Source of the DNA: an alpha proteobacterium BAL199
GTDB lineage: Bacteria; Pseudomonadota; Alphaproteobacteria; Thalassobaculales; Thalassobaculaceae
Assembly: GCA_000171835.1 (NCBI GenBank)
Contig: ABHC01000015.1
Location: forward strand, 62,001-126,000
Direction: 5' to 3'
Length of the DNA: 64,000 nt
The notes below the pieces were generated by a model. The model was not told where the DNA came from. It was given only the letters and a program-made list of their open reading frames with translations, and searched no databases. The stretch's first letter is position 1. Each line of letters opens with the position of its first letter. Shown piece after piece: positions 2,423-12,686 of the stretch. The translations under genes and the position numbers were made by a program.

Positions 2423-3673
2423 TTACCCCTTCGCCAGCAATTCCGCCACCGCCAGCGCCACCACTTCGGTGGCGGCCCGCAGATCGGACAGCACCAGCCG
2501 CTCATCGGCCCGATGACCATTGGCATCCAGGAAGGTTCGCGGCCCGGCGCCGTAGCCGATGGTCGGCACGCCGGCCTCGGCGTACAACCGGGCATCGGTG
2601 TACAACGGCACGCCTTCAACCGGAACTTCCTCGCCAAGCAATCGCCTTGCGTGGTGCCGCACCGGATCGATCAGCTTTTCCGCACCGTCCAGGCGACGCA
2701 GCGGCGCAGCCAGCAAAACCCGGTTGATTTCGACACTGATCCCCGCTCGACCAGCCACCGCCGCCTCGATGACGGCCCGAAGTCCGGCCTCGACCGCTGC
2801 CGGATCTTCCTCCGGGGTCATCCGCCGGTCGAGCCGGACGGTGCATCGGTCAGGTACCACGTTGGTGTTGATGCCGCCGTTGATCAGGCCGACCGTCAGA
2901 TTCGGATGGCCGATCCCGGGAATCTTTGACACCCGTTGGGGGAACTCGCGTCGCTCGGCGTACAGGGCCTGCAGCACCGCCGTCATCGCCTCGATCGCGT
3001 CGGCGCCCTCGTCCGGCTTGGCGGCGTGGGCCGACCGGCCGCGCACCGTCACCTCCAGGTGCAGGCAGCCATTGTGCGCGGTCACCACCGCATGGCTGAA
3101 CCCGGCGCTGATCGCGTAGTCCGGCTGGCTCAGTCCCTGGCCGAGGATCCACGCCGGGCCGATACCCCCGCCGGTCTCCTCGTCATAGGTCAGATGCAGT
3201 TCGACCGTCCCGGACAGCCCGTCGGCAATCGCTTCGAGCGCTAAAAGCGCGAAGGCGTAGGTCGCGAAATCGGATTTCGACACGGCAACGCCGCGACCGT
3301 ACATCACGCCATCGATGACCTCGCCGCCATACGGGTCATGTGTCCAGCCGTCGCCCGGCGGCACCACGTCGCCATGGGCGTTCAGTGCGACGACCGGGCC
3401 ATCGCCGAACCGCCGGCGTGCGATCAGGTTGGTGCATGAGATCATTCCAGCCGTTCGCACCACCTCCCCCGGCACAACATGACGCTCAACGGTAAAACCG
3501 AGTCCTTCAAGCAGGCCGGCCGTCACCTCAGCGTGGGCCGAGCAGTCCCCCGGCGGGTTATCGGAGGGTTGTTGCACCAGGGCGCGCAGGAACTCGACCT
3601 GCTTGTCCCAGCCGGCATCGATCGCCGCAGCGACGGGCGCGATGACGGTATCGGATGAGCGGCTGGCAGACAT
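2423..3673 (-). CDS. M20 family (ArgE/DapE-type) deacylase
   Basis: Metal-dependent amidohydrolase of the M20 family, 416 residues, the usual length for ArgE/DapE-like N-acyl amino acid deacylases. Visible metal ligands are His100 and Asp102 (NAHGDVVPPGDGW), the catalytic Glu165-Glu166 pair in YDEETGGG, a TDAR aspartate and a C-terminal GHRADE histidine. The position that normally holds the bridging aspartate (GRGxxDxKG) reads GRGVAVSKSD, so the usual Asp is Val and an Asp lies four residues later. It is the last gene of the operon that starts with the TRAP transporter, 12 bases after the GNAT gene. By context it may remove an acyl or carbamoyl group from an amino acid released by ring opening; that role is inference. 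It could equally act on a dipeptide. Confidence 0.85.
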   Translation of the reverse strand: MSASRSSDTVIAPVAAAIDAGWDKQVEFLRALVQQPSDNPPGDCSAHAEVTAGLLEGLGFTVERHVVPGEVVRTAGMISCTNLIARRRFGDGPVVALNAHGDVVPPGDGWTHDPYGGEVIDGVMYGRGVAVSKSDFATYAFALLALEAIADGLSGTVELHLTYDEETGGGIGPAWILGQGLSQPDYAISAGFSHAVVTAHNGCLHLEVTVRGRSAHAAKPDEGADAIEAMTAVLQALYAERREFPQRVSKIPGIGHPNLTVGLINGGINTNVVPDRCTVRLDRRMTPEEDPAAVEAGLRAVIEAAVAGRAGISVEINRVLLAAPLRRLDGAEKLIDPVRHHARRLLGEEVPVEGVPLYTDARLYAEAGVPTIGYGAGPRTFLDANGHRADERLVLSDLRAATEVVALAVAELLAKG

Positions 3674-3685
3674 GCGGTGACTTCC

Positions 3686-4534
3686 TTATCCCAGCTCGAA
3701 CGTGGTGACGCCGAACAGCTTCGGCAGCGGCAGTTCCGGCGCCGGACCACGGTACATACGGGCGGTCTCGAACACCGGCGTCAGACCATAACGGCGCGCG
3801 AGGGCAACCGCATCGGCATTCGGTTCCGGCGTGTCCAGGGCGACGGTGACGCCAGGCATCGTGGCGGCCAACTGCCGGAACAACAGGTCGGCACGATCAG
3901 CGTCATCGGCGAACAGGGGCCCAATCTTGGCGCCGTCCCGGCAGGCCCGCACCACCCCGTACCCGGTAATGCGGCCATCCTCCAGCAGCGCCCAACCAGT
4001 CCGGGTATCGCCGTTCAGCCAGCACTGCAGGAATTTGTCGCGCGGCGCCGGAAAGAACGGCCGGTCGTAGGCAACTACCGCGTCGCTTAGCGCCGGTCCA
4101 ATGCGAACCAGCCGAAGGTCGTCCGGCTTCTCCACCGCCGGCACCCCGCTTTGGCGGATGTTGCGGTACGCAAACTCGAAGCCGGATTTGCGGTAGTTGT
4201 CCTGCTGGTCGACCACCCCGTCGAGACCGACGACACGGTCGCCCAGGCGGGCCACCCCGGCCTGCCACAGCCGGTAACCGATGCAGCGGCCACGCAAGTC
4301 GGGCCGGCAGATGTAGAAGCCGAGGAAGCCGAACGACGCGCCGTAGTTGATCACCGAGATGGCGGCCGCTGGCTCATCGTCGAGGAACGCCATCAGGAAC
4401 CCGTCAGGGTCCTCTGCTCGAAAACACGTCGCATCGTCGATCCCGGGATTCCAGCCTTCGGCCGCGGCCCAGTCGACGGCGAGGTCGACCTCGGCCGCTG
4501 TCATCGAACGAATTTGAATTGAATCTGCCATCAT
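3686..4534 (-). CDS. GNAT family N-acetyltransferase with second acetyltransferase-like domain
   Basis: About 282 residues with an N-terminal GNAT fold. The acetyl-CoA site can be recognised around LGFYICRPDLRGRCIGYRLW, a variant of the RGxGxG/A loop. A C-terminal half resembles the Acetyltransf_18 (YitH-like) domain. The acceptor is unknown. The frame continues upstream, but that part is shadow sequence of the preceding gene. The start at 4534 overlaps the stop of the PuuE-like gene as ATGA, and a second ATG follows directly at 4531. The gene sits between a PuuE-type enzyme and an M20 deacylase, so an acetylated intermediate that the deacylase later frees is one possible logic. That is speculation from gene order. 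Confidence 0.8.
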   Translation of the reverse strand: MMADSIQIRSMTAAEVDLAVDWAAAEGWNPGIDDATCFRAEDPDGFLMAFLDDEPAAAISVINYGASFGFLGFYICRPDLRGRCIGYRLWQAGVARLGDRVVGLDGVVDQQDNYRKSGFEFAYRNIRQSGVPAVEKPDDLRLVRIGPALSDAVVAYDRPFFPAPRDKFLQCWLNGDTRTGWALLEDGRITGYGVVRACRDGAKIGPLFADDADRADLLFRQLAATMPGVTVALDTPEPNADAVALARRYGLTPVFETARMYRGPAPELPLPKLFGVTTFELG

Positions 4535-5439
4535 GCCGGTCTGTGGTGGTTGTGCCAGTGCTTGGCGATGTCGACCCGCCGGCAGATCCAGACGTCCCCG
4601 AAGCCGGCGGCGTAGTCGAGGAACCGGGCGAGCGCGGCCGTCCGCCCCGGTCGTCCGACCAGTCGGCAATGCAGGCCGACGTTCATCATCTTCGGGGTCT
4701 CGGCACCCTCGGCCCGCAGCACGTCGAAACTGTCCTTCAGGTAGCTGAAGAACTGGTCACCGCTGTTGAAGCCCTGGGCGGTGGCAAACCGCATGTCGTT
4801 GGCGTCCAGCGTGTACGGGATCACCAGATGCGGACCGTTCCGTCCGTCGAGCCAGTACGGCAGGTCGTCGGCGTAGCTGTCGCTGTCGTAGAGGAAGCCA
4901 CCCTCCTCCATGACCAGTTGGCGGGTCTGCGGGCTGATCCGGCCGGTGTACCAGCCGAGCGGCCGGCTGCCGGTCGCCTCGGTGTGCAGGCGGATCGCCT
5001 CGCGCAACTGCCGCCGCTCCTCATCGACCGGCATGTCCTGATAGTCGATCCAGCGCAGGGCATGGCTGGCGATCTCCCAATCGGCCTCCTTCATGGCGGC
5101 GACCGCCTCGGGGTTGCGCACCAGCGCCGCCGTCACCCCATAGACCGTGACCGGCAGTTTGCGCGACGTGAAGGTCCGCCACAGCCGCCAGAACCCGGCG
5201 CGCGATCCATATTCGTAGATCGATTCCATGTTCATGTTGCGCTTGCCGACCAGCGGCTGGGCGCCGACGATCTCCGACAGGAACGCTTCCGACGCAGCAT
5301 CACCGTCGAGGATGGTGTTCTCGCCGCCCTCCTCGTAGTTGATCACGAACTGCAGGGCCAGCCGGGCACCGTTCGGCCACGCCGCCAGCGGCGGGGTGCG
5401 GCCGTAGCCGATCATGTCGCGGGGATAGTCCGGGTTCAC
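4531..5439 (-). CDS. puuE: PuuE-type allantoinase / polysaccharide-deacetylase-fold hydrolase (paralogue A)
   Basis: 302-residue protein of the polysaccharide deacetylase (NodB) fold that matches the PuuE allantoinase group closely, including NMNMESIYEYGSRAGFW and EEGGFLYDSDSYADDLPYW. PuuE enzymes open the hydantoin ring of (S)-allantoin without a metal; the Asp-His-His metal triad of true deacetylases is replaced by Glu-His-Trp. Here the NYEEGGE glutamates (36-37), His126 and Trp130 (SHALRW) fit that pattern. No uricase, OHCU decarboxylase or HIU hydrolase gene is in the window, so allantoin itself may not be the natural substrate. The gene is in the TRAP operon, 72 bases after paralogue B and overlapping the GNAT gene. 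Family confident, substrate less so. Confidence 0.85.
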   Translation of the reverse strand: MNPDYPRDMIGYGRTPPLAAWPNGARLALQFVINYEEGGENTILDGDAASEAFLSEIVGAQPLVGKRNMNMESIYEYGSRAGFWRLWRTFTSRKLPVTVYGVTAALVRNPEAVAAMKEADWEIASHALRWIDYQDMPVDEERRQLREAIRLHTEATGSRPLGWYTGRISPQTRQLVMEEGGFLYDSDSYADDLPYWLDGRNGPHLVIPYTLDANDMRFATAQGFNSGDQFFSYLKDSFDVLRAEGAETPKMMNVGLHCRLVGRPGRTAALARFLDYAAGFGDVWICRRVDIAKHWHNHHRPA

Positions 5440-5511: not shown

Positions 5512-6429
5512 TTAGTCCACATCCCCCCATTCCGGCAAGCCGTTCAGCGCGCGCCAGTGGTGCGCGATGGCGTCGCGGCGCGTCACCCAGATCTGGCCGC
5601 GCTTGCGGATGTGGGCCATGACCTTCTCGAGCCCGGCAATGCGGGCCGGTCGGCCGATGATCCGCAGGTGCAGGCCAATCGACATCATGGACGGGCCGCG
5701 GCGGCCAGCCTCCTCCCACAACCAGTCGATGGCGTCGATGCAGTAGCGGGCGAAATCGTCGGCGTGGGTGAAACCACCCTGACGCTGAAAGCGCATGTCG
5801 TTGGTGTCGAAGGCGTAGGGCAGAACTACGTGCGGCCGATCGCCGACCGGAAGGATGAACGGCAGGTCGTCGTTGTAGTGGTCGCTGTCGTAGAGGAACC
5901 CCCCCTCCTCGACCAGCAGGCGCCGCGTGTTCGGGCTCGGCGCCGAGCGGGTGTGCCAACCGAGCGGCCGCACCCCGGCGGAACCGCGGATCGCTGACAC
6001 CGCCCGGGCGATCATCGCTTTCTCATGCGCCTCGTCCATTCCGGCGTGCCGCTCCCACCGGTAGGAATGGCAGGAAATCTCGTGGCCGCGAGCGCGCGCA
6101 TCCGGGCCGAGCCAGGGCGACAGTTCCAGCGCCCGGGCGCAGCAGTTCATGGTCGCCGGCATGTCGTAGCGGTCGAACAGTTCCATGATCCGCCAGTAGC
6201 CGGCACGGGTGCCATAGTCGAAATGGCTGTCCTTGCAGGGGTCGGGTGCGCCCACGACCTCCTCGACGACCTCGTAGACCGCCTCGTTTCGTTCGTCGCC
6301 CAGGCTGACCGACAGCTCGGCCCCCTCTTCGACGTTGATCACGAAAGACACGGCGAGCCGCGCATCGGACGGCCAGTTTGGGTCCGGGCGCTGGTCGCCA
6401 TAGCCCAGAAAGTCACGCCCGCCGGTCAC
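5512..6429 (-). CDS. PuuE-like polysaccharide-deacetylase-fold hydrolase (paralogue B)
   Basis: Second PuuE-like enzyme of 305 residues, clearly homologous to its downstream neighbour but well diverged. Shared features are GYG near the N-terminus, INVEEGAE (Glu34-Glu35), DYGTRAGYWR, and EEGGFLYDSDHYNDDLPF. It keeps the PuuE-type residues His121 and Trp125 (CHSYRW) instead of the metal-binding His-His of chitin deacetylases. Two paralogues in one operon suggest two related ring-opening or amidase steps, or two enantiomers of one substrate; this is inference. Its start overlaps the stop of the racemase-like gene as ATGA. The 72 bases between it and paralogue A hold no clear promoter or terminator. 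Confidence 0.82.
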   Translation of the reverse strand: MTGGRDFLGYGDQRPDPNWPSDARLAVSFVINVEEGAELSVSLGDERNEAVYEVVEEVVGAPDPCKDSHFDYGTRAGYWRIMELFDRYDMPATMNCCARALELSPWLGPDARARGHEISCHSYRWERHAGMDEAHEKAMIARAVSAIRGSAGVRPLGWHTRSAPSPNTRRLLVEEGGFLYDSDHYNDDLPFILPVGDRPHVVLPYAFDTNDMRFQRQGGFTHADDFARYCIDAIDWLWEEAGRRGPSMMSIGLHLRIIGRPARIAGLEKVMAHIRKRGQIWVTRRDAIAHHWRALNGLPEWGDVD

Positions 6430-7103
6430 GCCACACCGTCCTGGGACAGCGCTGCCACCAAGCGTCGGACGGCAGCCGGCACCGGTTCGATTAACGGCAC
6501 CGGCGATGTCGGGGCCAATGTCCGCGCGGCGTCGGCCAGCGGCCCGCCTCCGACCACCACCGCTTCGGCGCCATCGTCGCGCACCGTGCGGCGGATCAGT
6601 TCGTCCAGAGCCGCCACCAACCGGTCGGCATCGGCCATCAGGGTCTGCGGATCTTCGGTCGTGCCCGGAATCGCCACCATACGATCGGCGAGGCCGAGCG
6701 CGGTTGCGTAGCGGCGCACGCAGTCAATCAGGCCGGGCGTGGTCATCAGTACCGCGAACCGCCCGATCGCCGCCGCCTCGCGCATCGAGGACTCGCCGAT
6801 GCCGACCACCGGCACGCTCAGGTGTTTCCGCATGTGATCGATGCCCGGATCGACAAACGCCGACAGGATCACCCCGTCGCCGTGATCCTTGGTGCGGTTG
6901 GCGTCATTGATCACCGCTTCGGTCGCCAAGGCGCTTCCGGCGTCATCGACGATCAATCGCGGAGACGCCGCCGTGGTGGACGCTTCGATCCGCAGCCAGG
7001 CCGGTGCCGCCGCCCGTGCGGCGACCAGCATCCGTTCGGTCGCCCGGCTGTCCGAGTTCGGGTTGATCAGCCGGACTGATCGCTGTGCGGGCGCGGTAGT
7101 CAT
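6426..7103 (-). CDS. Asp/Glu/hydantoin racemase-fold protein lacking both catalytic cysteines
   Basis: 225-residue member of the Asp/Glu racemase superfamily, closest in pattern to hydantoin and allantoin racemases: RLINPNS at the N-terminus, a xFxDPG loop and VPVVGIGES. Those enzymes use two cysteines, in ACFGDPG and LGCAG contexts. Here the first reads LSAFVDPG (Ala82) and the second VVGGGP near residue 186, so both are absent; the only cysteine is Cys128 in LIDCVRR. A two-base racemisation by cysteines is therefore unlikely and the chemistry is open. The longer frame upstream is shadow of DctM. The ATG at 7103 overlaps the dctM stop as ATGA, and the stop overlaps PuuE paralogue B, so this is the centre of the operon. 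Confidence 0.8.
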   Translation of the reverse strand: MTTAPAQRSVRLINPNSDSRATERMLVAARAAAPAWLRIEASTTAASPRLIVDDAGSALATEAVINDANRTKDHGDGVILSAFVDPGIDHMRKHLSVPVVGIGESSMREAAAIGRFAVLMTTPGLIDCVRRYATALGLADRMVAIPGTTEDPQTLMADADRLVAALDELIRRTVRDDGAEAVVVGGGPLADAARTLAPTSPVPLIEPVPAAVRRLVAALSQDGVA

Positions 7104-8407
7104 CGTGAACTCACCATCCATTCGACCGGCCACAGCACGAGCTGCGGGAACACGGTGATCACCACGATGCCCAGCAGCATCAGGAAGAAGAACGGCATTG
7201 CCGCACGGGTGACCTGCAGAATGTCGCGCCCGGTCATGCCTTGCAGGACGAACAGGTTGAAACCGACCGGCGGGGTGATCTGCGCCATCTCCACGACGAT
7301 CACCGTGAAGATGCCGAACCACACCAGATCGATGCCTGCCGCCTGCACCATCGGCAGTACCACCGCGGCGGTCAGCACCATCATCGACACACCGTCGAGG
7401 AAGCAGCCGAGGAAAATGTACAGGATGGTCAGCACCACCAGCAGCATGGTCGGTGACAGGTCGAACGAATCCACATAGCCGGCCAGCACCCGCGGCACGC
7501 CGGTAAATCCCATCGCGATCGACAGGAACGCCGCGCCACCCAGGATGAACGCGATCATGCAGGAAGTGCGAACCGCGCCCATCAGGCTTTCCATGAACGA
7601 GCCCCAGGTGAGCGACTTCGACACCCAGGCCAGTACCAGCGCGCCGAGCACTCCGATGGTCGCAGCCTCGGTCGGCGTGGCATAGCCGCCATAGATCGAT
7701 CCGATCACCACGAAGATCAGCAGGATCACCGGGATCAGCAGGCGCGACGCCCACACCTTCTCTCGAAAACTGGTGCGCGTGTCGTCCCTGGGCGCCAACG
7801 ACGGATCGAGCGTTGTGCGAATCATCACGTAGCCCATGAAGATCGCGATAATCACGATGCCCGGCAGCACGCCGGCGATGAACATGCGCGAGATCGACTG
7901 CTGGGCGATGACGCCGTAGACGATCAGCATGATCGACGGCGGAATCAGCAGGCCGAGCGTGCCGGAGCCTGCGAGCGTGCCGATCGACAGGTTTTCGTCG
8001 TAGCCGCGCTTCTTCAACTCCGGAATGCTCATGCGTCCGACGGTGGCACAGGTGACCGCGCTCGATCCGGCGACCGCCGCCATCACGCCGCAACCGATGA
8101 TGTTCACATGGAACAAGCCGCCCGGCAGCCGCGACAGCCAGGGCGCCAAGCCGTTGAACATGTCGGAAGACAATCGGGTCCGGAACAGGATCTCGCCCAT
8201 CCACACGAACAGTGGCAGCGCGGTCAGCGCCCAGTTCCAACTGGCATCCCATACGGTGCTGGCCAACAGCGAGCCGGCCGGGGCCGGCGAGAAGAACTCC
8301 AGTGCCACGAAGCCGACGGCCAGCAGGGCGGGAGCCACCCACAACCCACTCGCCAGCAGCACCAGCATGACGCCGAACAGCAGAAGGGAAATCGCGCCGG
8401 CGTCCAT
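7100..8407 (-). CDS. dctM: TRAP transporter large permease (DctM)
   Basis: 435-residue polytopic protein of the TRAP DctM family with about 12 helices. Typical stretches include LPLFVWMGEIL, AAVAGSSAVTCATVG, IPPSIMLIVYGVIA and the QITPPVGFNLFVLQG signature near the C-terminus. It is the sodium-coupled transport subunit of a tripartite carboxylate-type importer. The start at 8407 overlaps the DctQ stop by one base (TGATG), which fixes it; the longer frame is shadow of DctQ. The cargo is not deducible from this subunit. The downstream racemase-fold and PuuE-like genes suggest a chiral cyclic ureide or a derived amino acid. Confidence 0.95.
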   Translation of the reverse strand: MDAGAISLLLFGVMLVLLASGLWVAPALLAVGFVALEFFSPAPAGSLLASTVWDASWNWALTALPLFVWMGEILFRTRLSSDMFNGLAPWLSRLPGGLFHVNIIGCGVMAAVAGSSAVTCATVGRMSIPELKKRGYDENLSIGTLAGSGTLGLLIPPSIMLIVYGVIAQQSISRMFIAGVLPGIVIIAIFMGYVMIRTTLDPSLAPRDDTRTSFREKVWASRLLIPVILLIFVVIGSIYGGYATPTEAATIGVLGALVLAWVSKSLTWGSFMESLMGAVRTSCMIAFILGGAAFLSIAMGFTGVPRVLAGYVDSFDLSPTMLLVVLTILYIFLGCFLDGVSMMVLTAAVVLPMVQAAGIDLVWFGIFTVIVVEMAQITPPVGFNLFVLQGMTGRDILQVTRAAMPFFFLMLLGIVVITVFPQLVLWPVEWMVSSR

Positions 8408-8952
8408 CACTGACCTCCCGCCGGGGTGCCGGCATCCAACGGCGTGTTGCCCAGCACCGTCTCTGCGTTCGCTTCGTAGGATGGCGTCGCACCGGACAGC
8501 ACCCGCACGAGCTCGTCGAGCAACGCCACCGTCAGGATGAATGAGCCGACCGCCATGGCCGATCGTGGAATCCAAAACGGTATCGCCAGCAGCCCTGGGC
8601 TGATCTCGTGGAAAACGTAGGAGTAGTAAACGAGGTCGCCGGCCCAGTAGGTGAAATAGGCCATCGCGGCGAGCATGAAGCCGATGGTCCACAACTCGAA
8701 CCCCTGCCGCACCCGCCCCTTGGACAGGCCGATCAGCAGATTCACACGGATGTGCGCGCCCTGCTTGAAGGTATGCGCCAAGCCGAGGAAGGTTGCCGCG
8801 GCCATGCTGAACCCGGCGCTTTCGGTCGAGTCGACCGCGACGCCGAAGAACCGGCCGACAATCTGTGCCACCACGGTAGCGGCAATCGCCACCAGGAACA
8901 CCGCGGCCGCATAGCCGCTCCATAGATAGAGAGTATCAAGCGCGCGTCGCAC
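8407..8952 (-). CDS. dctQ: TRAP transporter small permease (DctQ)
   Basis: 181-residue small permease of a TRAP transporter with four predicted helices, including AAVFLVAIAATVVAQIVGRFFG and AVGSFILTVALLDELVR. The conserved ESAGFSMAAATFLGLAHTFKQGAHIRVNLL region is characteristic of DctQ. It joins DctM to form the membrane complex. It is preceded by an intercistronic hairpin after dctP and overlaps dctM. This arrangement normally gives more binding protein than permease. Confidence 0.93.
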   Translation of the reverse strand: MRRALDTLYLWSGYAAAVFLVAIAATVVAQIVGRFFGVAVDSTESAGFSMAAATFLGLAHTFKQGAHIRVNLLIGLSKGRVRQGFELWTIGFMLAAMAYFTYWAGDLVYYSYVFHEISPGLLAIPFWIPRSAMAVGSFILTVALLDELVRVLSGATPSYEANAETVLGNTPLDAGTPAGGQ

Positions 8953-9021: not shown

Positions 9022-10002
9022 TCACTGCAGCGCGAGGTAGCGATCGAGAACCGCGGCCGCTTCCGGGCTGGCAGTCTTGCGCCAATCATCCATCATCACC
9101 GCGCCGATCTTCTTCATGGCGTCGATGACCTGCGGCGGTGCGTTCGACGTCTTCATGCCGTTCTTCGCCAGAATCTTCATCTGATCCGAAGTGGTCTGCG
9201 CGCTCATCTCCCAGCCACGCAGTTCGGCATTCGCCGCCGCCGCCAGGATGCCGGCCTTGTCGGCATCCGACAGCGCCGAGAAATACCGTTCGCTGACGAT
9301 CACCGCGTTCTTCGATAGAATTGCACCGGCATAGGTGAAGTGGCTGGTGTTGTCCCAGGCCTGAATGTCGATACCGGTTTGCGGGCTGGTGAACAAAGCC
9401 TCGATCAGGCCGGTCGAGAATGCCTGCGGCACCTCAGCAAACGGCAGAATGGTGGCGTTGAACCCGAGCATCTCACCCATCTTCTGGGTGGCGATCGAGT
9501 AGATCCGCAGCTTCTTGCCCTTGAAGTCCTCGGTCGAGTTCACCGGGAACTTCGTGTAGAAGCCCTGCCCCGGCCACGGCGCGTAGTACAGGATCCGCAT
9601 GCCGTCCTTGGCGAACTTCTCTGCGAAATAGCCCTTCTGCAGGTCCTTCAGCAGCCAAGCTTCCGCATAGTTCGAGGCGATGAACGGCAGCCCCGCGAGG
9701 ATGTACATCGGGTCCTCGTTGCCGTACACGCCCAGCCGGATCTCGCCGATCGGCACTTGGCCGCGCTGGACCGCGGTCTTGATCGCGTCCAGCTTGATCA
9801 GCGAGTCGTTGGAATTGAGGTTGATTTTGACGCTGGTGGTCTTGCCCACCTCGTCAATGAACGCCCGGATATTCTTGGTGTGGAAGTTATCCTCCGAGTA
9901 GCCCGAAGCCATGATCCAGTCGACCGCCAGCGCCGGGCCGCTCGCCAGCGCGAGCGTGGCGCCAACAACGGCGGACGCCACTGTGTTGCGTGTCCAAGCC
10001 AT
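9022..10002 (-). CDS. dctP: TRAP transporter substrate-binding protein (DctP family)
   Basis: Periplasmic binding protein of about 326 residues. The start at 10002 is chosen because GGAGGA lies eight bases upstream; the frame runs nine codons further without such a site. The N-terminus MAWTRNTVASAVVGATLALA is a clear Sec signal with probable cleavage after ALA before VDWIMASGY. The mature part has the DctP pattern: FKGKKLRIYS, ATILPFAEVPQAFSTGLIEALFTSP, and the ERYFSALSDADK helix. It delivers the ligand to DctQM. It is the first gene of the eight-gene operon. Upstream are a 20-bp palindrome and an 18-bp tandem repeat, probable control sites. No regulator gene for this operon is apparent nearby. 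Confidence 0.93.
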   Translation of the reverse strand: MAWTRNTVASAVVGATLALASGPALAVDWIMASGYSEDNFHTKNIRAFIDEVGKTTSVKINLNSNDSLIKLDAIKTAVQRGQVPIGEIRLGVYGNEDPMYILAGLPFIASNYAEAWLLKDLQKGYFAEKFAKDGMRILYYAPWPGQGFYTKFPVNSTEDFKGKKLRIYSIATQKMGEMLGFNATILPFAEVPQAFSTGLIEALFTSPQTGIDIQAWDNTSHFTYAGAILSKNAVIVSERYFSALSDADKAGILAAAANAELRGWEMSAQTTSDQMKILAKNGMKTSNAPPQVIDAMKKIGAVMMDDWRKTASPEAAAVLDRYLALQ

Positions 10003-10040
10003 CCCCGAAATCCTCCTGCATTGATGCATCCGTCCGGCCT

Positions 10041-11208: not shown

Positions 11209-11844
11209 CTACTTGGTGCCGTACATCCGGTCGCCGGCGTCGCCCAGGCCCGGCAGGATGTAACCGTGGTCATTCAACTGACGATCGATCGCCGCCGTGT
11301 AGATCGGCACGTCCGGATGAGCCGCCGTGAACGCGGCTATGCCTTCGGGCGCCGCCAACAGGCAGACGAACTTGATGCGGGTCGCCCCGGCATCCTTCAG
11401 GCGCTGCACGGCAGCCGCCGCTGAATTTCCGGTCGCCAGCATCGGATCGACCGCAATGCACAGCCGGTCGCCAATCTGCTCCGGCAGCTTCATGTAGTAC
11501 TCGACCGGCTTCAGCGACTTCGGATCGCGGTACAACCCGACATGACCGACCCGGGCCGACGGGACCAGATCCAGCATGCCATCCAGAAGGCCGTTGCCGG
11601 CGCGCAGGATCGACACGAAGCACAGCTTCTTGCCCTCCAGCTTCGGCGCCATCATCGTCTCCAGTGGCGTCTGGATCTCGATCATCGAGACCTCAAGGTC
11701 GCGCAAGACCTCGTATGCCAAAAGCAGACTGATTTCCTGGAGCAGTTGGCGGAACTTGGACGTCGCCGTCGTCGCCTCGCGCATGATCGTCAGCTTGTGA
11801 CGGATCAGCGGATGGTCGACGACAACCGTGTTGGGATGCGTCAT
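11209..11844 (-). CDS. upp: Uracil phosphoribosyltransferase
   Basis: 211-residue cytoplasmic enzyme that converts uracil and PRPP to UMP. Diagnostic stretches are [12 protein letters not shown] at the N-terminus, [22 protein letters not shown], the PRPP loop [12 protein letters not shown], and the C-terminal uracil-binding [20 protein letters not shown]. Length and ends match the family exactly. The TetR regulator upstream on the same strand resembles RutR, the pyrimidine-responsive regulator, so the two may be linked in pyrimidine salvage. The space between them is about 98 bases. Confidence 0.97.
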
Positions 11845-11942
11845 GGCACGGCCTCTCTCAGTCGGAACAGCATCGCGTCACCGGCCAACGCCGGCGAACG
11901 TACTTGCCCCGCCCTTTAGCACGCCGGCTCGTGATGAGGTCG

Positions 11943-12644
11943 TCAAATCTGACGCCTTGCCACCGTGGATCCAGCCGCCGGAATCGGTATTCCCAGACCG
12001 CGCAAGACGATTGCCGTCACGGTCTCCACGGCATCTCGGAATTCGCCATCGTCCAGCCGGTCGACGCCCAGGACCGCTGTGACCTGCGGTGCGAAATCCG
12101 CATAGGTCTGAGTGACCGCCCAAATTGTGAAGAACACATGCTCCGGCGGCAGGTCGGCCATCATGCCGCGCCGCTGCCAGGTGCGGAACACCGTGCCCTG
12201 CCGCTCCACCCAGGCACGCAGATAACCCTGCAGGTAACCGCCGATCACCGGTGCGCCGGTGATGACTTCCATGGCGAACACCCGCGACGCCTCCGGTCGC
12301 TCCTTCGACAGCGCCATCTTGCGCTGGATGTAGCCGGTCAGCGCCTCGGCCGGATCGTCGTCCACGCTGATCTCGCCCAGCGCGCCCAGCCAGACCTCCA
12401 GGATATCGGCGATGACCGCCTCGTACAGCGCCTCCTTGCTCTTGAAGTAGTAGAGCAGGTTGGCTTTCGGCAGGGCCACTTCCTCGGCGATCTCGTCCAG
12501 GCGGGCGCCACGATAACCCCGGCGTGCGAACACGCGCTCGGCGGCCGTCAGGATTTCACGGCGGTTGCGTTCGCCGATCCGGCCCCGGCGTCGCGTCGCG
12601 GATACGATCTTTGCGGGGAGGTCGGATGCGGTCGCTTCGCTCAT
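11943..12644 (-). CDS. TetR-family regulator, RutR-like
   Basis: About 233 residues. The N-terminal helix-turn-helix (residues about 25-70) reads RREILTAAERVFARRGYRGARLDEIAEEVALPKANLLYYFKSKEALYEAV. The C-terminal part matches the YcdC/RutR ligand domain, with HVFFTIWAVTQTYADFAPQV typical of RutR. RutR senses uracil or thymine and controls pyrimidine use, which fits the adjacent upp. The frame could open at GTG 12650, but ATG 12644 gives the usual MSEAT-type start; no strong ribosome site is visible for either. It could instead control another operon, since the rut genes are not in the window. Confidence 0.82.
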   Translation of the reverse strand: MSEATASDLPAKIVSATRRRGRIGERNRREILTAAERVFARRGYRGARLDEIAEEVALPKANLLYYFKSKEALYEAVIADILEVWLGALGEISVDDDPAEALTGYIQRKMALSKERPEASRVFAMEVITGAPVIGGYLQGYLRAWVERQGTVFRTWQRRGMMADLPPEHVFFTIWAVTQTYADFAPQVTAVLGVDRLDDGEFRDAVETVTAIVLRGLGIPIPAAGSTVARRQI

Positions 12645-12686
12645 GCCCACAGAATAGGCAGCGAATGCGGCTGCCGATACCCCCGA

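Follow-up and report, generated by a model that had tools for sequence, protein, structure and literature searches.

A cysteine-free branch of the hydantoin/allantoin racemase family and its possible thiol-free chemistry

Introduction

In the textbook scheme of the Asp/Glu racemase superfamily, two cysteines work from opposite faces, one as acid and the other as base. A conserved branch with neither cysteine, found near hydantoinases and PuuE, departs from this scheme and raises the question of what the racemase fold does without its thiols. We addressed this question at a single locus, in a window of 64,000 nucleotides from the alpha proteobacterium BAL199 (by window we mean this whole stretch of DNA). 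The protein of interest, 225 amino acids long and cysteine-free at both catalytic sites, is labeled RAC throughout. If the branch is active, it would show the racemase fold working without thiols and would matter for biocatalysis and for the breakdown of cyclic ureides and hydantoins; if inactive, RAC would be a clean example of a pseudoenzyme partner in bacteria. In both cases, “aspartate/glutamate racemase family protein”, the name carried by plasmid records that match RAC, tells little about its reaction.

Both catalytic cysteines are replaced in RAC

The original prediction, made from the letters of the window, had placed a racemase-fold gene at positions 6426–7103. These coordinates proved exact. 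The gene runs from 7103 to 6426 on the minus strand, which the earlier reader had not seen, and encodes 225 residues; the plus-strand frame contains stops. Pfam assigns the protein to the Asp/Glu/hydantoin racemase family (PF01177, Asp_Glu_race) with 115.6 bits against a gathering cut-off of 31, and no NCBIfam model matched it at an E-value of 0.001.

The two motifs that surround the catalytic cysteines in this family are both recognizable and both altered. The first, LSAFVDPG (residues 80–87; positions 6843–6866, minus strand), has Ala82 at the first cysteine site, followed by an invariant Asp85. The second, VVGGGP (residues 183–188; positions 6540–6557, minus strand), has Gly186 at the second site and a Pro188 that is typical of the clade. 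A HMMER alignment to the wild-type allantoin racemase of Klebsiella pneumoniae (PDB 3qvj) sets Ala82 and Gly186 opposite Cys79 and Cys184, as these cysteines are numbered in PMC12661438. The earlier reading of both motifs, with alanine in place of the first cysteine and no cysteine near residue 186, is thus borne out by translation and alignment. RAC thereby lacks the cysteine pair of two-cysteine racemases such as HyuE and KpAllR. In 3qvk, a related deposited sequence, both sites are Ser.

The predicted structure resembles allantoin racemases

An AlphaFold2 model of RAC, computed from a 32-row alignment in which the window protein was joined by 31 of the 32 loci that it matched (see below), reached a mean pLDDT of 92.2 and a pTM of 0.90. 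Together with Foldseek and VIA comparisons, the model points to the two-lobed racemase fold. The nearest solved structures were allantoin racemases (Foldseek, 3qvk, E-value 8.9e-15), and VIA Z scores were 28.1 for 5lg5, 28.0 for 5lfd, 26.8 for 3qvk, and 26.6 for 3qvj. With the K. pneumoniae enzyme (HpxA/AllR, 3qvj), RAC shares the fold (rmsd 2.3 over 217 residues), the NPN motif, and the DPG that follows the first site; the two differ at the cysteine sites and in the second loop, which reads GCGGM in 3qvj and GGGPL in RAC.

The best fold match, the allantoin racemase of Pseudomonas fluorescens (5lfd, 5lg5), has also lost the first cysteine in its solved sequence. The 5lfd sequence has Gly at that site, Glu three residues further on at the position of Asp85, and the second cysteine still in place; RAC has neither this Glu nor the second cysteine. 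Cendron is said to have described in 2016 how the Glu of the P. fluorescens enzyme takes over from the lost cysteine, and reportedly also a bicyclic route of allantoin.

More distant members of the superfamily have lost one of the two cysteines. Arylmalonate decarboxylase (AMDase; 3dg9, 2vlb, 3ixm; Z 15.1 to 15.9) has Gly74 and Cys188, the latter as its only proton donor, so that here the loss of one cysteine goes with a changed reaction (PMC4996985). RAC has Gly186 at the second site and lacks LMGTSLSF and ILLSCGGL, given as AMDase motifs in the same text (PMC4996985). The L-Asp/Glu-specific racemase of E. coli (EcL-DER; 5elm and 5ell, Z 15.3 and 15.2) has one cysteine replaced and the other kept, as Thr83 and Cys197 (PMC12661438). 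Mutants of relatives suggest how much the thiols matter. In NozR, interconversion was undetectable for C75A, C179A, and C75A/C179A (PMC10156859), and in OpaE, C90S retained 4.8% of activity, with C199S and C90S/C199S at most at 0.3% (PMC12661438). In another family, a Cys-to-Thr change turns a hydroxyproline epimerase into a dehydratase (PMC8142540). Our literature search, thin on subscription papers, found no report of a family member with neither cysteine in the abstract openings and text passages that it covered; PMC11698098 mentions allantoin racemase in connection with purine use in the sea.

The substitutions are shared by a branch of the family

Searching genome contigs with the window protein returned 32 loci (one of them, L011, read in two pieces), and every one of them carries Ala82 and Gly186. 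The peptide patterns used in this search span neither cysteine site, and since all 32 loci share Ala and Gly, the pattern is not due to chance. L011, from a metagenome assembly, has the same operon, with frame breaks in RAC, DctM, PuuE2, and GNAT; because all four genes are broken alike, this looks like an assembly error rather than gene decay, and the locus was left out of the two alignments and both trees described below.

For a wider collection, we built a profile from an alignment of 42 hand-picked rows, chosen by the look of their motifs, with cysteine-bearing rows and a large number of near-identical ones omitted; given this choice, the invariance of Ala82 and Gly186 in that alignment is not counted as evidence. 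The profile matched 102 of 386 genomes in the window’s class (E-value 0.001), 81 of 398 in its phylum (1e-25), and 12 of 296 in the phylum of an Arthrobacter (1e-20), all of these figures including two-cysteine relatives. Each search contributed its best loci alone, and from the resulting 257 we obtained 192 unique family members. By the residues at the two sites, with all shares biased by the profile, they comprise 70 Cys/Cys, 81 Ala/Gly (biased upwards because the profile came from Ala/Gly sequences), 21 Cys/Gly, 10 Gly/Cys, 4 Val/Gly, 3 Thr/Ser, 1 Ile/Gly, and 1 Ser/Gly member, plus the frame-broken L011. Among the Ala/Gly members, 53 form what we call the core, by our own cut (GGGP without a following Ile, score of at least 205), and 28 are others.

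The collection bears on the role of Cys128 (positions 6720–6722, minus strand), which had been picked out as the only cysteine of RAC and as lying outside both motifs. Both statements held. One could suppose that a misalignment hides the true catalytic residue, given that RAC has no other cysteine to offer. An Ile of 3qvj stands opposite Cys128, however, and Cys occurs there in 1 of the 53 core rows, that of the window itself, and in none of the 28 other Ala/Gly rows. For these reasons Cys128 is not a displaced catalytic residue, and a catalytic role for it is barely credible.

Two further features stand out. The NPN motif (residues 14–16; positions 7056–7064, minus strand) keeps Asn14 and Asn16 in 53/53 core rows and 70/70 two-cysteine relatives. 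Thr122 (positions 6738–6740, minus strand) is specific to the clade: it is present in 52/53 core rows, and 56/70 two-cysteine relatives have Leu there.

We examined two phylogenetic trees. In a tree of 134 rows with the motif columns included, a single branch separates the Ala/Gly rows from all others (90/84, recovered in 86% of bootstrap trees), and a star marks the 48-row core (100/100). In a tree of 191 rows without the motif columns, which is unrooted, has several long branches, and was made by a quick method without bootstrap, RAC falls within a starred set of 55 rows, all of them Ala/Gly. By record titles, this set spans many families and two phyla, Pseudomonadota and Actinomycetota. In this tree, only the wider class with no cysteine at either site (87 of the 191 rows: 81 Ala/Gly, 4 Val/Gly, 1 Ile/Gly, 1 Ser/Gly) forms one side of a branch, unstarred, with an SH-aLRT of 92. 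That the exact Ala/Gly state arose just once was rejected, as this label needs three changes on the 191-row tree, two of which are forced by starred branches.

RAC thus has Ala-x-x-Asp-Pro at the first site, GGGP at the second, and a place in one clade even when the motif columns are removed. Sequence, model, and tree together place it in a coherent branch of the hydantoin/allantoin racemases that has neither cysteine. This branch-wide state had escaped the original prediction, as had the minus strand; its view of an intact, coupled gene that is unlikely to have decayed stood up, as shown below. Judging by the rest of the superfamily, the two cysteines are presumably ancestral. If so, the one-cysteine groups leave room for a stepwise loss, and since such single-thiol relatives exist (the 21 Cys/Gly and 10 Gly/Cys members), it is conceivable that the chemistry changed before the last cysteine was lost.

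No obvious residue replaces the thiols

Is there a residue in RAC that could take over from the cysteines? Asp85 is present in 81/81 Ala/Gly rows and also in 70/70 two-cysteine rows, and Glu104 is similarly general (49/53 core, 68/70 two-cysteine rows). As the two-cysteine enzymes carry both, these residues mark no new mechanism. At the second thiol site, the alignment revealed no new conserved acid or base, and nothing obvious as a replacement. The Gly/Cys rows, which are of the 5lfd type, have Glu at the position of Asp85 in 8 of 10 cases (GEHG; L226, L232, L233, L235, L236, L237, L238, and L255).

These observations bear on the reading that RAC has remained a racemase or epimerase, acting on an acidic C-H such as that of a 5-substituted hydantoin or an allantoin-like ureide, in which Asp85 and a polar group or water would stand in for the thiols. 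The 5lfd type offers a precedent, with Gly at the first site and a Glu that most Gly/Cys rows share; the Ala/Gly rows invariably keep an acid at position 85, and the genes around RAC are those one would expect near hydantoin racemases. The acid is nevertheless the Asp of the two-cysteine enzymes and not the longer Glu, the second thiol has gone as well, unlike in 5lfd, and replacing both thiols with Ala or Ser kills activity in two relatives. A Glu rescue of the P. fluorescens type is absent, and the original suggestion of isomerization by another base is therefore weakened. We consider this reading unlikely, though it deserves weight.

RAC is encoded in an operon with a TRAP transporter and PuuE-like hydrolases

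On the minus strand, the operon reads dctP, dctQ, dctM, RAC, PuuE1, PuuE2, GNAT, M20. The first three genes encode a TRAP transporter: the solute-binding protein DctP (9022–10029; PF03480, NF037995), DctQ (8407–8952; PF04290, 71.6 bits), and DctM (7100–8407; PF06808, 291.1 bits). RAC overlaps its two neighbors by four bases each, dctM through ATGA and puuE1 through GTGA. PuuE1 (5512–6429) is a PuuE-like hydrolase of the polysaccharide deacetylase fold that scores 308.5 bits with TIGR03212 and misses the equivalog cut-off of 424.6; it is a PuuE paralogue, near the PuuE structure 3cl6 (E-value 2.2e-83). PuuE2 (4531–5439) exceeds the same cut-off with 535.6 bits and is an allantoinase PuuE. It is followed by a GNAT acetyltransferase-like protein (3686–4534; PF18014, PF00583), which overlaps PuuE2 by four bases (ATGA), and an M20 family deacylase of the ArgE/DapE type (2423–3673; PF01546; TIGR01910, 212.4 bits, just below the cut-off of 217.6).

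RAC adjoins PuuE1 in all 13 compared loci that hold a core RAC, namely that of the window itself and those of 12 genomes from the same family. It had been proposed to check whether homologues in the same operons also lack both cysteines, and they do so in 11 of the 11 genomes listed. In Thalassobaculum fulvum, the cluster runs in the order TRAP, RAC, PuuE1, ABC transporter genes, a two-cysteine racemase, PuuE2, GNAT, and M20, so that the two-cysteine racemase sits beside the true PuuE (PuuE2) and the cysteine-free RAC beside the paralogue PuuE1. Since a two-cysteine racemase stands beside PuuE2 in the same cluster, RAC is not simply the allantoin racemase of this species. That each PuuE paralogue has a racemase-fold gene of its own at its side suggests that RAC serves the substrate of PuuE1.

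Ring and amide hydrolases near cysteine-free relatives

Beyond these genomes, the neighborhoods vary. In a second genus (L169–L173), RAC lies beside PuuE1 and a carbon-nitrogen hydrolase, with a two-cysteine racemase about 7 to 11 kb away. In L169 and L172, a D-hydantoinase sits between RAC and the carbon-nitrogen hydrolase, the one in L172, directly beside RAC, scoring 769.8 bits with PRK13404 (cut-off 647). Three other Ala/Gly rows are also found near D-hydantoinases (L108, L106, L022). Eight loci (L014, L016, L021, L023, L027, L030, L032, and L036) combine the cysteine-free protein with an ABC transporter, a GlmS-like SIS protein, a PfkB kinase, a BtpA family protein, PuuE-like genes, and an amidohydrolase, though not every gene occurs in each. 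Such clusters are reminiscent of the breakdown of Amadori compounds. The record titles of L030 and L036 name Acidobacteria, a doubtful label, as a search of that genome’s phylum gave places already seen in the window’s phylum. Further surroundings of RAC include two PuuE-like genes and a guanine-deaminase-like amidohydrolase along with ABC transporter, SIS, PfkB kinase, and BtpA genes, or an MFS transporter and DUF6282.

To quantify these neighbors, we counted ring and amide hydrolases within 3 kb, for loci with 3 kb on both sides and with hydrolase models built from genes of those same loci. Such a hydrolase was found in 26/38 core and 8/11 other Ala/Gly loci, compared with 13/34 two-cysteine, 4/16 Cys/Gly, 0/3 Val/Gly, and 0/2 Thr/Ser loci. 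The enrichment is modest, because in a positional control the hydrolase was present at 0–3 kb in 14/26 loci and still at 4–7 kb in 9/26. PuuE itself was found within 3 kb in 20 of the 38 core loci. Within 1.5 kb, counted over all loci, many of which have short flanks, it accompanied 30/53 core, 4/28 other Ala/Gly, 18/70 two-cysteine, 3/21 Cys/Gly, and 0/10 Gly/Cys members. PuuE as an obligate partner of RAC is ruled out, since the remaining 18 of the 38 core loci have none within 3 kb.

The pocket appears conserved while the rest of the protein diverges

We next asked how selection acts on RAC. Between the window and T. fulvum, RAC shows a dN of 0.27 and a dS of 0.655 (Nei-Gojobori). The resulting ratio of 0.41 is the highest among the five operon genes compared, the others being 0.25 for PuuE1, 0.13 for DctM, 0.13 for DctQ, and 0.14 for DctP. 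Across eight genomes that each hold RAC, the two-cysteine racemase, and PuuE1, median identities over the 28 pairs, which are not independent, were 51% for RAC, 84% for the two-cysteine racemase, and 77% for PuuE1; RAC was less identical than the two-cysteine racemase in 27 of the 28 pairs.

This elevated ratio is what a decaying copy of a two-cysteine racemase, its cysteines recently lost, might lead one to expect. The open frame, the four-base overlaps, a dN/dS below 1, and the conserved clade, with its starred 55-row Ala/Gly set across many families, speak against such a copy, and decay was rejected as highly improbable. The original prediction had likewise judged the gene intact, tightly coupled, and unlikely to be a decayed copy, and we agree, because the frame is intact, both junctions overlap by four bases, dN/dS is about 0.41, and the homologues in the same operons also lack both cysteines.

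The strand-end loops of the racemase fold line its active site. Of the 23 core positions that are at least 98% conserved, 16 fall in the seven-residue segments where strands end, 56 of the 206 positions in all (P 7.7e-6; strand ends from the AlphaFold2 model, the last one set by us at residue 205). As conserved residues crowd the active-site loops despite the low identity of RAC, its pocket seems, from the sequences compared, to be guarded while the remaining protein drifts. From the conserved loops, the dN/dS ratio, and the operon coupling, we infer that RAC is a small-molecule pocket under selection and not a decayed gene.

RAC may also be a pseudoenzyme that partners PuuE1 by binding a ligand or as a scaffold, and would then serve in substrate delivery, stabilization, or regulation. 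Its four-base overlap with puuE1, its constant place beside PuuE1 in the 13 compared loci, its top dN/dS among the five operon genes, and the absence of the family’s catalytic residues all fit such a role. The conserved residues lie in the pocket loops, however, as ligand binding or catalysis predicts, and nearly half of the core loci (the 18 of 38 above) have no PuuE within reach. Overall, we find a pseudoenzyme rather improbable.

A possible different reaction in the same pocket

What, then, could RAC do? The original prediction had named three options: substrate binding, isomerization by another base, or a different reaction. RAC keeps the fold, both first-loop asparagines, and the conserved loops around the former cysteine sites. 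Because both thiols are missing, it cannot move a C-H proton with two thiols as its relatives do. Its gene neighbors suggest that RAC may belong to the catabolic series of the co-translated PuuE1 and act there on a cyclic ureide or amide that is perhaps the cargo of the TRAP transporter. In this pocket, it would carry out a different, non-thiol step on the substrate or product of PuuE1, possibly a one-face reaction such as a tautomerization, a ring-chain isomerization, or a lyase or decarboxylase step. The loop backbone might provide an oxyanion hole, with Asp85, perhaps together with Thr122, as polar groups.

We put the probability that RAC catalyzes a different, non-thiol reaction on a cyclic ureide or amide at roughly 0.45, the exact reaction being our reading of sequence and gene context. 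Several lines of evidence favor this view: the thiols are missing throughout the branch, from the close loci to the starred Ala/Gly set and the wider class without cysteines; the conserved core positions crowd the strand ends; and thiol mutants of relatives (NozR, OpaE) are dead or nearly so. In addition, ring and amide hydrolases, including the D-hydantoinase of L172, accompany most core loci, and T. fulvum keeps RAC/PuuE1 and two-cysteine racemase/PuuE2 in one cluster. Single-thiol relatives exist, and the epimerase that becomes a dehydratase is a precedent in another family.

Other observations pull the opposite way. PuuE, D-hydantoinase, and the C-N hydrolase are the neighbors expected of true hydantoin or allantoin racemases, and they therefore point to racemization by other means. 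Asp85 and Glu104 are shared with the two-cysteine enzymes, the faster evolution of RAC relative to its partners also fits a loosened, non-catalytic role, 12 of the 38 core loci lack any such hydrolase in the surrounding 3 kb, and the positional control is weak. More tentatively than the different reaction itself, the cysteine-free branch could represent a new type of enzyme built on the racemase fold, one that handles cyclic ureides or amides without thiols; databases name it a racemase family protein even though the residues of the known racemases are missing from it. Such an enzyme might, for instance, perform a ring-chain or bicyclic rearrangement that inverts a stereocenter without breaking a C-H bond, or a lyase step.

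Related genes in the BAL199 genome and the window

The BAL199 genome holds nine PF01177 matches, eight of them above the cut-off. A second cysteine-free paralogue (contig C41, L186:5810–6430) lies outside the core, with the motifs AAFGDPG and GGGPIAG, and none of the hydrolases sought lies within 3 kb of it. A tandem pair of the PF01177 type (contig C65, L187:5970–7505), to which no NCBIfam model matched, has Thr and Ser at the two cysteine sites; its motifs, DTVSDSG or DTMSDSG and GSTTMH, define another group without the usual cysteine pair. The same genome has 13 matches to the PuuE model at an E-value of 0.001, one of them above the cut-off. Within the window, positions 11209–12650 on the minus strand encode a uracil phosphoribosyltransferase (PF14681) and a TetR regulator with a YcdC-like C-terminal domain (PF08362), possibly related to pyrimidines. 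On the plus strand, positions 1–2418 encode an M81/MlrC-type metallopeptidase family protein and then an EamA transporter, convergent with the RAC operon.
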